Made by a program: the position numbers and the translations under genes
The notes under the pieces: model-generated
What the model saw: only the letters and a program-made list of their open reading frames with translations
Told to the model about the DNA's origin: nothing
The model's database searches: none
Shown: positions 2,885-12,965 of the stretch, piece by piece
Position numbering within the stretch: position 1 is the stretch's first letter
How the letters are laid out: each line of letters starts with the position of its first letter
Virus record (IMG/VR): IMGVR_UViG_3300042301_000161
Coordinates: 1 to 23,844 of that record
DNA: 23,844 nt
Strand: one strand, 5' to 3'
Origin: a virus

Positions 2885-2962
2885 CCCATCAAAAGTCGTC
2901 AGTTCCTAGGGTTTTCCCGATTCCACTTCATACAACGTCCATTATGTAAAGTCGATCCTGAG

Positions 2963-3051
2963 TTATGCACAGAAAAAGGAATACCGAAGGCAACAGCGCA
3001 GGGTTATGCACCGCAATCTGTGGATAAGTTTTGGATTCGGGCTGTGGATAA
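2963..3051. promoter_or_regulatory. Cluster of four DnaA-box-like 9-mers
   Basis: The bacterial DnaA box is TTATNCACA, with TTATCCACA the strongest form. In 89 bp I see TTATGCACA at 2963-2971 (plus strand, fits consensus), TTATGCACC at 3004-3012 (plus, one mismatch), and the exact strong form on the minus strand twice, at 3019-3027 and 3043-3051. The last two are 24 bp apart, a little over two helical turns, and the two types face each other. Two exact strong boxes so close together are very unlikely by chance. Host DnaA probably binds here. Confidence 0.7.
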
Positions 3052-3129: not shown

Positions 3130-3144
3130 TGAGAATGATTCTCA
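3130..3144. promoter_or_regulatory. Fur-box-like palindrome
   Basis: TGAGAATGATTCTCA is a perfect inverted repeat of 7 bases around a single central G. It has the 7-1-7 layout of the Fur operator (TGATAATNATTATCA) and matches it at all but two symmetric positions. Flanking bases (ATT on the left, TT on the right) also suit the 19-bp form. Fur represses iron-uptake promoters in proteobacteria when iron is plentiful. No iron gene is nearby: the site lies 79 bp beyond the last DnaA-like box in the candidate origin and about 335 bp upstream of terS. Binding is inferred from sequence only. Confidence 0.6.
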
Positions 3145-3216: not shown

Positions 3217-3438
3217 CTACAAGCCACCATCATCTTGAGGCTGTGGGATGACAAGGACAACGCTCTCAAGAGGCGTATCGGGCCGCAATCCAAGATTGTA
3301 GAAATGACGGTAGGTATCGATGACCTCCAAGAAGCCAGCCGAGATGTCGCCACTGCCTGCCGCCAGCAAGATGGCACGTTCAGCATCACCGAGGGTGCGC
3401 TGGAAGTACTTAACCGTTGGAGTTGCTTTGCCGACCAT
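3217..3438 (-). CDS. Small phage protein of unknown function (73 aa)
   Basis: I do not recognise a named family. The 73-aa product (MVGKATPTVKYFQRTLGD..., ending PQPQDDGGL) has balanced composition and two predicted helices around residues 12-45, and reads as a genuine protein, unlike the antisense frames here. ATG 3438 is preferred because GGAAAG stands about nine bases upstream; the frame also reaches 3471 with a poorer site. It is isolated between the GC-rich repeat array and the DnaA-box block, so a role at the origin is a reasonable guess and nothing more. Confidence 0.6.
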   Translation of the reverse strand: MVGKATPTVKYFQRTLGDAERAILLAAGSGDISAGFLEVIDTYRHFYNLGLRPDTPLESVVLVIPQPQDDGGL

Positions 3439-3488
3439 TGCTGTCTTTCCAAACTTAATCAACCATCCCAAACATTCCGCATCCCGTT

Positions 3489-3600
3489 GCCCCTACCGCC
3501 CCTAACGTATACGTTTTAGGGGCGGGGAGGGGCGATTTCACGGGCTTTTGCCCCTAATCCCTAAAAACCCCTAGGGGCGCTCAGGGGCGTTTAGGGGCGT
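3489..3600. repeat. GC-rich repeat array with 10-bp phasing (iteron-like)
   Basis: AGGGGCG on the plus strand (CGCCCCT on the minus) occurs at 3518, 3528, 3573, 3583 and 3593. Neighbouring copies are exactly 10 bp apart within each group, so they face the same side of the helix. Inverted GCCCCT copies lie at 3489, 3498 and 3550, and CCCCTAGGGG at 3568-3577 is a palindrome. The two rightmost copies are inside the last codons of the primase-helicase. The G-strand GGGGCGGGGAGGGG (3519-3532) with a nearby GGG could fold into a G-quadruplex. Tandem phased repeats beside a replication gene resemble plasmid iterons. Confidence 0.6.
3496..3525. repeat. Long imperfect palindrome in the GC-rich array
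   Basis: CCGCCCCTAA (3496-3505) is exactly complementary to TTAGGGGCGG (3516-3525). Between and overlapping them sits the 12-bp perfect palindrome AACGTATACGTT (3504-3515), so nearly the whole 30 bp can pair with a small offset. It lies between the primase-helicase stop and the 73-aa gene. There is no T tract on either strand, so I favour a protein-binding site or a cruciform over a terminator. Confidence 0.55.
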
Positions 3601-5629
3601 TTCTTTGCATCAACATCGCACTGGCTTGTGCCTCATTTTTGAACACCCAGCCGTGCTCTGTTGGCTCCAAAGCGCCCGCATTAAGCATTGGTGCAATGAT
3701 GCCATCCGACCTGGAGGCTTCGGTCTTGTTCTTGGCGGTGCGCTCTGACATGCCATCCTTGACCAGCAAATCACGCAGTGCTGACCTGCTTACATAGGGT
3801 AAACCCTCACGATCTTCTGCGCCGGATGCCCACCAAGCACGCTCAATGGTGCGCATATTCTCATCATGTTTGGAGGGTTTTTTGTGGGGTTTGTTGGTGT
3901 TGGACTCCACATCTGGGATGGCAACGCAAGTGGTGGCTGGGCTTCCGAACTTGGTGGTGCCCATTTGCACGACCTCCAGCTTGAAGTAAATCGTGTCGCC
4001 TTTGCTTGGGAGTTCGCGCTGCTTGGTGACGGTGACTGACCTGATGCCATCTTTCTCCACCACCTCGATCTCGGTGTCGATGTGTGCTCGGATGCCTGAC
4101 CAGCCTCTAGCGCCTTTGGCTGCGTCTTTGCCATTGTGGTGAATGATCATCAGGGCTGCGCCTGTGGCGGTGGCCACTTGGTCGAATCTGGCCATAACTG
4201 GTCCCATGTCCTCGCCGCTGTTCTCGTTGGCTCCGGCGCTCATTCTGGCCAAGGTGTCGCCAATGATGAGGCGCACGGGCTGGCCCTTGATCTGCTCAAT
4301 GGTCCTGACCAGCTCGATGACGTCGTGGGCATCTTGATCGCCGTTATAGAAGTTCATGGGGACTGGCACCATTGCCAAGTTCTCAAGGTTGCAGCCGTGG
4401 TACTTTTTAATGGCCTGCATCCTTGAGCGAATACTGGCTGGTGCTTCGCTGGCCAAGTACACCACTAAGCCGGGATCGGTCTTTTTGCCGTAGCAGTCTG
4501 CACCAGTGGCAATGGCTGTGGCCACTGAAAGCGCCCAAAAGGTTTTGCCTGAGTTGCTGTCGCCGTACACCACGACTGCGCTGCCAATGGTCATCAAGCC
4601 CTCAACCAGTTCGTCTGGTGCCTCGTAATCACCGCCAAGATTGTCGCCAAACACGACCTTGAGCTTGTCAATTACTGCGGTGCCTGTTTGTTGCACCAAA
4701 AGTGCTGAAAGGTTGTTGCCTGCCTGTGCGTAATCATTGGCATCCATACCCTCAATGGGCGGCATCACCACTCTGGCCCCATATTTGGCGCTGGCTTGGT
4801 CTGCATAGCGTTGCCCAACGCCGTGTTTGTCATGGTCTGCCACGATAACGATGTCCTGAGTTGCGCCATACATTTCACGCAGGCTGGCTGTAACGGGCAC
4901 CAAGCTGCTGGCGCTGTAGGCCACTACGCAAGGTCGGTTGGTGGTTTCATAAATCGTGGCCGCAGTTGCAAAACCCTCAGCAACGTACAAGGTGCCAGGC
5001 TCATCCAGTGAGCCTATCATCCAGAATTTCCCGCCTGATTTGCCGCCAGGGTGGTAGAGCTTCCCACCATCCTCATCAATGTACTGGAGGGTGCTGAGTT
5101 TTCCCTCTGAATCGTACAGCGGCACCATCAATCGGCCATCGCCAGTGACGCGAACGCCATGCGTCTGGATGCCCTTGCGTTTAAGGTAAGGGTGATCGGG
5201 GTGCGCTCCAAGACCACTAAGCCAGATCTTTTCCACTGTCTCACTAGCAATTTGATGCTGGCGCTCTTGGGCAGCTTCCCGCAATAACATGGACTCATTG
5301 ATGCGCCTTGCGTGGGCCATTTCTTCAAATTCGGTCAGTTTTCTGCCAACGTCTGCCCTCCATGTCTGCTCAATGCCCGCCCTCCAGCAGCCGAAGCGCC
5401 CTGCTGGGATGCCATCACCAAACACCAAGTACCAACCGGGCTTGTCGATGCCCGGTGTTCCCTTAGTGCCTGACTTAAAACGATGAATCTTGCCATCCAT
5501 CTCGATGTGATCTGGTGGCTCCAAACCCACTGCACGCATTGCGTCAATTAGTTGAGCCTCTGGCGAGGCAACCAGTTTCTCTGGTGGTGGCGCCCAAGGG
5601 CCACCGAGGACTTTTGAAAGGTCAGCCAT
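3581..5629 (-). CDS. Primase-helicase: Toprim domain plus RepA-like hexameric helicase
   Basis: This 682-aa bifunctional replication protein should prime and unwind at the fork. The N-terminal third resembles the DUF7146 domain that precedes Toprim. Toprim follows at about 210-300, with LYVAEGFATA (E218) and IVIVADHDKHG (D265, D267). The RecA-like helicase follows, with Walker A GDSNSGKT (356-363), Walker B RLIIGD (453-458) and the sensor IIHHNGKD (495-502), as in plasmid RSF1010 RepA and phage AAA_25 helicases. The C-terminal 100 residues look like a winged-helix region. ATG 5629 has AGGAGG nine bases upstream and overlaps the cro-like stop by 8 bases. It is encoded with the packaging genes, opposite the recombination operon. 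Confidence 0.9.
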   Translation of the reverse strand: MADLSKVLGGPWAPPPEKLVASPEAQLIDAMRAVGLEPPDHIEMDGKIHRFKSGTKGTPGIDKPGWYLVFGDGIPAGRFGCWRAGIEQTWRADVGRKLTEFEEMAHARRINESMLLREAAQERQHQIASETVEKIWLSGLGAHPDHPYLKRKGIQTHGVRVTGDGRLMVPLYDSEGKLSTLQYIDEDGGKLYHPGGKSGGKFWMIGSLDEPGTLYVAEGFATAATIYETTNRPCVVAYSASSLVPVTASLREMYGATQDIVIVADHDKHGVGQRYADQASAKYGARVVMPPIEGMDANDYAQAGNNLSALLVQQTGTAVIDKLKVVFGDNLGGDYEAPDELVEGLMTIGSAVVVYGDSNSGKTFWALSVATAIATGADCYGKKTDPGLVVYLASEAPASIRSRMQAIKKYHGCNLENLAMVPVPMNFYNGDQDAHDVIELVRTIEQIKGQPVRLIIGDTLARMSAGANENSGEDMGPVMARFDQVATATGAALMIIHHNGKDAAKGARGWSGIRAHIDTEIEVVEKDGIRSVTVTKQRELPSKGDTIYFKLEVVQMGTTKFGSPATTCVAIPDVESNTNKPHKKPSKHDENMRTIERAWWASGAEDREGLPYVSRSALRDLLVKDGMSERTAKNKTEASRSDGIIAPMLNAGALEPTEHGWVFKNEAQASAMLMQRNAPKRP

Positions 5630-5807: not shown

Positions 5808-5919
5808 GTTTTCTGCCTTTGTTGAAAAAATATGTTGACATCATATCTTTTAATTGTGGTAAAGTCTAGGCACACCACAAACAGATTCCCTGACAGTGGT
5901 GCAAAAGAAGGAGAGCCAG
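5808..5919. promoter_or_regulatory. Divergent promoter region with operator-like repeats
   Basis: This 112-bp gap separates the two main operons. Plus strand: TTGACA at 5835-5840 and an extended -10 TGGTAAAGT at 5857-5865, with a long 19-base spacer. Minus strand: TAGACT (5863-5868) and TATGAT (5840-5845) are spaced 17 bases apart, so the two promoters overlap face to face. The 17-bp palindrome ATATGTTGACATCATAT (5830-5846) covers the plus -35 and the minus -10. A second inverted repeat, TTGTGGT (5854-5860) and ACCACAA (5874-5880), brackets the plus start region. One bound dimer could silence both directions. Confidence 0.6.
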
Positions 5920-7761: not shown

Positions 7762-8790
7762 ATGAAAATACCCGAGAGTGATCATAACATTCAGGCGCTG
7801 ATTGACAAGCACCATGAAGCCACTGCCGAAGTGCCTCGCCCACATCTTGGGGCCAGTAGTTTGGGCCATGTGTGCGACAGGTGGCTATGGCTGTCGTTTC
7901 GGTGGGCTGTTCAGCCTGAGTTCTCTGGCCGCATCCTGCGATTGTTCCGCCGTGGCCATCAAGAGGAAGCCAACATCATCAGTGACCTGCGTGCCATTGG
8001 TCTGGATGTGCGCAAGGTGTCGAGCCAGCACCGGGTTGATTTTGGCAGCCATGTCTCGGGTTCGCTAGATGCAATCATCGACTCTGGTGTTCCTGAAGCG
8101 CCAAAGACCAAGCATGTGGCCGAGTTTAAAACGCATAGCAAGAAGTCGTTTGATGCGCTGGTGAAAGATGGCGTGGAGAAGTCCAAGCCCGAGCACTTTG
8201 TGCAGATGCAGGTCTACATGGCTGGCACTGGTCTGGACCGTGCGCTTTATGTGGCCGTCTGCAAGGACGATGACCGCATCCACACCGAGCGCGTGAAGCT
8301 GGACAAGGATGTGGCCGACAAGGCCGTGCGCCGGGGCCATTACATTGCTTTGAGCGACAGGATGCCGGAGCCGATCAGCACCGATGCGAGCTGGTATCAG
8401 TGCAAATTCTGCGATGCGCATGAGTTCTGCCATGAGTCCAAGACTACCAAGCATGTGAACTGCCGCACCTGTGCGATGGCCACACCATTGTCAGACTCAA
8501 CCTGGCACTGCGGCAAATGGGACGATGTGATTCCGGTGGATGCACAGCGCAATGGCTGCGAGAGTCATGTCCTGCACCCTGATCTGGTGCCGTGGCAGCG
8601 CAAGGATGGGCCGGACGAATGGACAGCAATTTACGAGATCAATGGCACAACTGTGGCCAATGGCGACCCAGAGCAAGAGGGCGTGTTCAGTAGCAAGGAA
8701 CTGCTGGCAAATGCTGGGGCTTGCGCTGATAAGGGCTGGACGCAGTTGCACGATATGCGCAAACAGTTTGGTGGAAGGGTGGTGGCTTGA
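7762..8790 (+). CDS. Cas4-like PD-(D/E)XK exonuclease with Fe-S cysteines
   Basis: A 342-aa nuclease. The active site reads GSLDAII (D103) and HVAEFKTHS (E121, K123), with a helix carrying Q148 and Q150 as in the RecB/Cas4 family. C38 near the N-terminus, together with C214, C217 and C223 after the core, gives the Cas4/AddB arrangement of four cysteines for a 4Fe-4S cluster. Residues 234-270 add a second Cys set (C234, C237, C250, C266), probably zinc-binding. Such enzymes resect DNA ends for annealing recombinases. ATG 7762 has CAGGAG seven bases upstream; the frame's earlier ATG at 7726 lies inside the hairpin and is rejected. Confidence 0.82.
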   Translation: MKIPESDHNIQALIDKHHEATAEVPRPHLGASSLGHVCDRWLWLSFRWAVQPEFSGRILRLFRRGHQEEANIISDLRAIGLDVRKVSSQHRVDFGSHVSGSLDAIIDSGVPEAPKTKHVAEFKTHSKKSFDALVKDGVEKSKPEHFVQMQVYMAGTGLDRALYVAVCKDDDRIHTERVKLDKDVADKAVRRGHYIALSDRMPEPISTDASWYQCKFCDAHEFCHESKTTKHVNCRTCAMATPLSDSTWHCGKWDDVIPVDAQRNGCESHVLHPDLVPWQRKDGPDEWTAIYEINGTTVANGDPEQEGVFSSKELLANAGACADKGWTQLHDMRKQFGGRVVA

Positions 8791-12666: not shown

Positions 12667-12965
12667 GCTGCATGAACACCCAAATTATGCACAGCCGCCA
12701 GTCTGACGAGGACAGGGCCGAGCGCCTTGAGTTTGCAATCGAGGCGCGAGCTGCCGAGCTGCTGAAGCACGGCGAGGCTTGCGACCCGATGGATGGCTTC
12801 AACATCGCCGAGGCGCTGGGCGAGGCAAGCACCAACGTCAAGATGGTGCTGGGCAAGGTGCTGGCCGAGCGCAAATTCGACCAGGTGGGGATTCTGGTGG
12901 ATAGCGTCACCCGAGATTATTGGGGCAAAAAGGCCGATGAGATGGCGCGGGAGGAATTGGCATGA
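12663..12965 (+). CDS. Hypothetical protein (100 aa)
   Basis: A 100-aa acidic helical protein (QSDEDRAERLEFAIEARAAELL near residues 14-35, ending KKADEMAREELA). No enzyme motif is seen. It overlaps the membrane peptide and the next gene by ATGA at both ends. The start at 12663 is chosen for this overlap; a second ATG at 12672 is possible. Function unknown. Confidence 0.7.
   Translation: MSCMNTQIMHSRQSDEDRAERLEFAIEARAAELLKHGEACDPMDGFNIAEALGEASTNVKMVLGKVLAERKFDQVGILVDSVTRDYWGKKADEMAREELA

Follow-up and report, generated by a model that had tools for sequence, protein, structure and literature searches.

A putative XerCD-type recombination core with a fixed array of predicted DnaA boxes in tailed-phage genomes from metagenomes

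The window analyzed here is a stretch of 23,844 nucleotides (positions 1–23,844 of IMG/VR virus record IMGVR_UViG_3300042301_000161). Terminase and primase-helicase genes lie on either side of a short region that holds four predicted DnaA boxes, a putative recombination core and a repeat array (Table 1). The boxes fall in a non-coding block bordered by the probable small terminase gene and a small ORF at 3217–3471(−), a homologue of which is present in the related locus L036; a search with the large terminase returned only remote relatives. Three of the boxes match the consensus TTATNCACA exactly and the fourth has one mismatch. Four boxes within 89 bp were found in 0 of 2000 dinucleotide shuffles, as were three boxes with two exact, which rules out a chance cluster. 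The window as a whole is unremarkable in its total of boxes with at most one mismatch (19, versus 13.4 ± 3.5 in shuffles), and only one further exact box occurs, at 12685. The original prediction had correctly located the two exact boxes at 3019–3027 and 3043–3051, with their 24 bp spacing and facing orientations, in a non-coding block near the primase-helicase gene. It had described the boxes at 2963 and 3004 as near-consensus, which holds for 3004; the box at 2963 is exact, which makes the cluster a little stronger than originally stated. A perfect 15 bp palindrome, TGAGAATGATTCTCA, lies further on at 3130–3144 and occurs among the aligned relatives only in the window and the near-identical locus L005; it resembles a Fur box. 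No Rfam family reached its gathering score anywhere in the window.

Table 1. Features of the window around the predicted DnaA boxes
Feature	Position	Strand	Details
Large terminase gene	610–1872	−	phrog_2
Probable small terminase subunit gene	2433–2795	−	position beside large terminase; no own Pfam/PHROG match
XerCD-type recombination core (putative)	2925–2952	+	28 bp; sequence comparison
XerC arm (putative)	2925–2935	+	ACTTCATACAA
Core centre (putative)	2936–2941	+	CGTCCA
XerD arm (putative)	2942–2952	+	TTATGTAAAGT
DnaA box 1 (predicted)	2963–2971	+	offset +38 from core start; TTATGCACA; exact to TTATNCACA
DnaA box 2 (predicted)	3004–3012	+	offset +79; TTATGCACC; 1 mismatch
DnaA box 3 (predicted)	3019–3027	−	offset +94; TTATCCACA; exact
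DnaA box 4 (predicted)	3043–3051	−	offset +118; TTATCCACA; exact
Repeat array, candidate phage origin, separate from the Xer/DnaA element	3489–3598	−	dyad 3497–3524; directly 3′ of primase
Primase-helicase gene	3581–5629	−	phrog_2249, phrog_2850

When the block was aligned with relatives identified by their primase, a conserved stretch of 28 bp emerged that ends 10 bp before the first box; it lies 10 bases outside the block originally reported and had been overlooked. This stretch has the layout of a XerCD site, with two 11 bp arms around a 6 bp centre and a XerD arm that is better conserved than the XerC arm, in keeping with the rule for dif/xrs sites (two 11 bp arms, a centre of 6–8 bp, the XerD arm the better conserved; PMC2731167, PMC11724359). 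A loose core pattern occurs once in the window and in only 2 of 2000 shuffles. Comparison with host dif sequences taken from the literature revealed that most relatives have a XerD arm, TTATGTTAAGT, identical to the Rhodoferax ferrireducens dif arm, while the XerD arm of the window, TTATGTAAAGT, is identical to the Bordetella pertussis dif arm (PMC2731167). Judging solely from this dif resemblance, the host likely belongs to the Burkholderiales, perhaps to the Comamonadaceae. An oligonucleotide similar to the core, ACTTCGTATAATCGCCATTATGTTAAAT, has served in XerC/XerD binding and cleavage assays (PMC7399989). A site with the same centre as the window, ACTTCGCATAA-CGTCCA-TTATGTTAAAT, is found beside blaOXA-72 on the Acinetobacter plasmid pAB-NCGM253. 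We take GGTGCGCGCAAGATCCATTATGTTAAAC to be the psi core of pSC101. That sequence, which is given in PMC8340030, has TCCATTATGTTAA in common with the phage core. A further dif-like site, ATATCGTATAA-TGCATA-TTATGTCAAAT, is present in L036 at 8763–8790 of record G011, upstream of the terminase genes; its XerD arm is identical to the Burkholderia mallei dif arm and no DnaA-box cluster accompanies it. G011 (80,527 b) is roughly double its relatives in length, and the contig is possibly a chimera.

Core and predicted DnaA boxes form one compact element of ~130 bp, which is common to more than 100 phage contigs from metagenomes. A search with the core pattern retrieved 17 viral contigs, most of which have boxes at +38, +79, +94, (+104) and +118 from the core start, as in the window. 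A second pattern, consisting of the XerD arm and the first box, retrieved at least 120 contigs, and pooling with the first set gave at least 110 distinct IMG/VR modules. In this set the XerD arm and the +38 box are fixed by the search pattern and the other boxes are free; among the 110 modules listed, a box is found at +79 in 97, at +94 in 100, at +118 in 60 or +117 in 20, and at +104 in 42. The phased array has four to five boxes. Diverse modules share 42% identity in the spacer that separates boxes 1 and 2, compared with 32–35% outside the element, yet the offsets are the same in most modules, thus indicating that the length of the spacer is kept and its sequence is not. Variation in the +79 box falls mostly on the free fifth base of TTATNCACA, as is usual for DnaA boxes, and the XerC side of the core is 35% identical, near background. 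In L095, 41 bp between the first two boxes have apparently been lost. Box positions that are kept to the base across divergent phages lend support to two of the original predictions, namely that host DnaA would bind in an ordered way and that the block is plasmid-like. High-affinity boxes on a multicopy phage genome could also act as a datA-like decoy that titrates host DnaA and slows host replication; a decoy would leave the Xer core and the fixed spacing unexplained, and we consider this function very improbable.

The two parts of the element are present or absent together. Among 80 primase relatives, box clusters occur only in loci of the core-carrying group. Of 68 readable upstream regions from relatives of the window's small terminase, cluster and core occur together in 26 (22 scored by rule, plus four whose diverged XerC arm was recognized by eye) and are both missing from 42, when the weak box group in L255 is scored as absent. 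Shared ancestry means that these counts do not represent independent events. In L282 and L289, the slot of the module upstream of the small terminase gene holds repeats of the GGCTTGGGGC/GGCTTCAAGC type, adjoining a shared C-rich stretch. A 130 bp sequence model of the element was run on module-bearing records, module-less primase relatives and isolates, and it revealed one full copy per genome in most module-bearing records, with partial copies in L095 and in L166, which is cut by a contig end. Among the module-less primase relatives examined, the model gave a partial copy in L010 and none in 22 others, and it found no copy in the isolates CGphi29, XX1924 and 1N2-2, which are relatives by primase. 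Most of the primase relatives that lack the module (L015–L084) carry an exact, isolated DnaA box, TTATCCACA, at a near-constant place ~133–151 bp after the primase stop codon. A known phage or plasmid element was sought in reference collections, and no match covered most of the query when the window segment was compared with INPHARED or when modules from two other contig groups were compared with INPHARED and PLSDB; the matches obtained were only p-dif-type cores or short pieces of the box array.

The cluster had first been read as a candidate replication origin. Boxes grouped beyond chance are what a DnaA-dependent origin would have, the consensus TTATNCACA is that of oriC/oriV-type origins, and many modules are AT-rich between approximately +200 and +249; an origin serving the phage or a plasmid-like stage could happen to sit beside a dimer-resolution site. 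Several observations make this improbable. GC skew, which is confounded by gene direction, does not switch at the element in the window, its minimum lying at 5890, where gene direction flips, and its extremes are not at the module in eight longer module-bearing records. Unlike oriC/oriV-type boxes, these are bound to a recombination core and are dispensable among close relatives: the whole element is absent from most relatives whose primase-helicase is 76–88% identical. Spacing that is base-exact relative to a Xer core would be unexpected for an independent origin, and GC-rich sequence intervenes between the boxes and the AT-rich stretch. The array at 3489–3598, which consists of GCCCCT/AGGGGC repeats, is found in the window and in 31 of 31 relatives aligned. 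Paired positions of its dyad change on both sides in 36 cells, versus 10.8 expected from shuffles and far above slid controls. The isolates have seemingly analogous arrays after their primases, judged by eye and built from other repeat units. We infer that this array is a better candidate for the phages' own origin than the box cluster. With relatives that lack the element, no turn in skew and a better candidate nearby, a general phage origin at the boxes is unsupported, and the element resembles a site for resolving plasmid dimers more than it does an origin.

The element adjoins the small terminase gene. Of 87 core-side neighbors, 69 are small terminases of the Sf6 type, and in some of the remaining modules the small terminase is on the box side. 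This constant proximity would fit a part of a packaging site (pac or cos) that is recognized by the small terminase, as would a mild enrichment of contig ends within 500 bp of the module (19 observed versus 8.9 expected), which could also reflect assembly breaks at shared sequence. The element nonetheless occurs beside unrelated small terminases and in either orientation, it is missing next to closely related copies of the same terminase, and its motifs match host DnaA and Xer sites, all of which makes a role in terminase recognition extremely improbable.

The main rival to dimer resolution is integration, in which host XerCD would insert a temperate phage at host dif by using the element as attP, with DnaA assisting or timing the event. 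Such a site would resemble those of the IMEX phages CTXφ, VGJφ and TLCφ, which are likewise phage sites for host XerCD that work with no phage integrase (PMC5357621). Consistent with this, 75 records, many of them fragments, yielded no tyrosine integrase (a result that also fits dimer resolution by host XerCD), the XerD arm is identical to Burkholderiales dif arms, and in some modules the first bases of the centre are TGT, as in dif (TGTATA) and as a VGJφ-type attP would have. On the other hand, IMEX phages integrate at dif and PMC5357621 describes no DnaA array for them, and p-dif sites similarly lack an accessory array, whereas no integrated copy of the phage element was found: a scan with one primase group detected no integrated close relative in 84,980 GTDB species genomes. 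The identified neighbors on the core side are phage terminase genes, with no host flank seen, and S24 repressor genes were found in 0 of 31 records, many of them fragmentary. We therefore regard integration at dif as unlikely. A plasmid prophage of the Par type likewise receives no support from ParA/ParB or S24 repressor genes, as ParB (PF02195) was found in 0 of 50 records and ParA-type ATPase (PF13614) in 0 of 31; many of these records are fragments, so the absence of such genes is no proof.

Plasmid sites for XerCD offer a closer model. At cer and psi, PepA, which has no recognizable motif, and either ArgR or ArcA bind ~200 bp of accessory DNA next to the core, and this lets XerCD act when two sites are on one molecule; accessory sites beside the core are a mark of small-plasmid Xer sites (PMC11724359). 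The phage element follows the same plan with predicted DnaA boxes in the accessory place, which suggests resolution of dimers or concatemers, or circularization of terminally redundant genomes. On the evidence of sequence comparison, it is moderately probable that the element is a site at which host XerCD circularizes or monomerizes phage genomes, DnaA taking the place of ArgR/ArcA as accessory protein. A mechanism is proposed where host XerC and XerD recombine two copies of the site on one molecule, supplied by phage genome dimers or concatemers or by a linear genome that is terminally redundant on injection, to yield circular monomers. DnaA would wrap the box array and form an architectural gate, as ArgR/ArcA (with PepA) do at cer and psi, and a site near the small terminase gene would be close to the packaging start. 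XerD may cut first, unlike at cer and psi, because the array flanks the XerD arm.

More tentatively, a DnaA-gated, XerD-side Xer site could circularize or monomerize the genomes of uncultivated tailed phages and so link resolution to the replication state of the host. A literature search of partial coverage turned up no account of DnaA acting as an accessory factor of Xer. For small-plasmid Xer sites the described factors are PepA and either ArgR or ArcA, and the phages that a review of the field presents as Xer users are vibriophages such as CTXφ. A widespread tailed-phage Xer core with a base-exact DnaA array would bring a new regulator into Xer recombination, and the element would suggest how phages without an integrase circularize or stay monomeric.

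In phage P1, loxP lies close to the packaging site. Like the phage element as proposed here, loxP is a tailed-phage recombination site that keeps the genome monomeric (PMC2409434), but P1 encodes its own recombinase, Cre, whereas the phage element would use host XerCD. The XerC/D-like (p-dif) sites of Acinetobacter have a nearly identical core, ACTTCGCATAA-CGTCCA-TTATGTTAAAT, but are without accessory sequences (PMC7399989) and often number several per plasmid (PMC5790767), in contrast to the array and the single copy per phage genome. The phage element shares with psi (pSC101) and cer (ColE1) one short Xer core and adjacent, ordered sites for host architectural proteins, and its predicted DnaA boxes stand at fixed offsets, as host-protein sites at a defined distance from the core do in cer and psi. 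It differs in having DnaA boxes in place of ArgR or ArcA sites, in being carried by tailed phages rather than plasmids, and in the side of the core that is occupied, since the accessory sequence of psi and cer adjoins the XerC arm (PMC11724359) and the phage array adjoins the XerD arm. With its array on the XerD side, the element would thus work like cer and psi but is no member of them.
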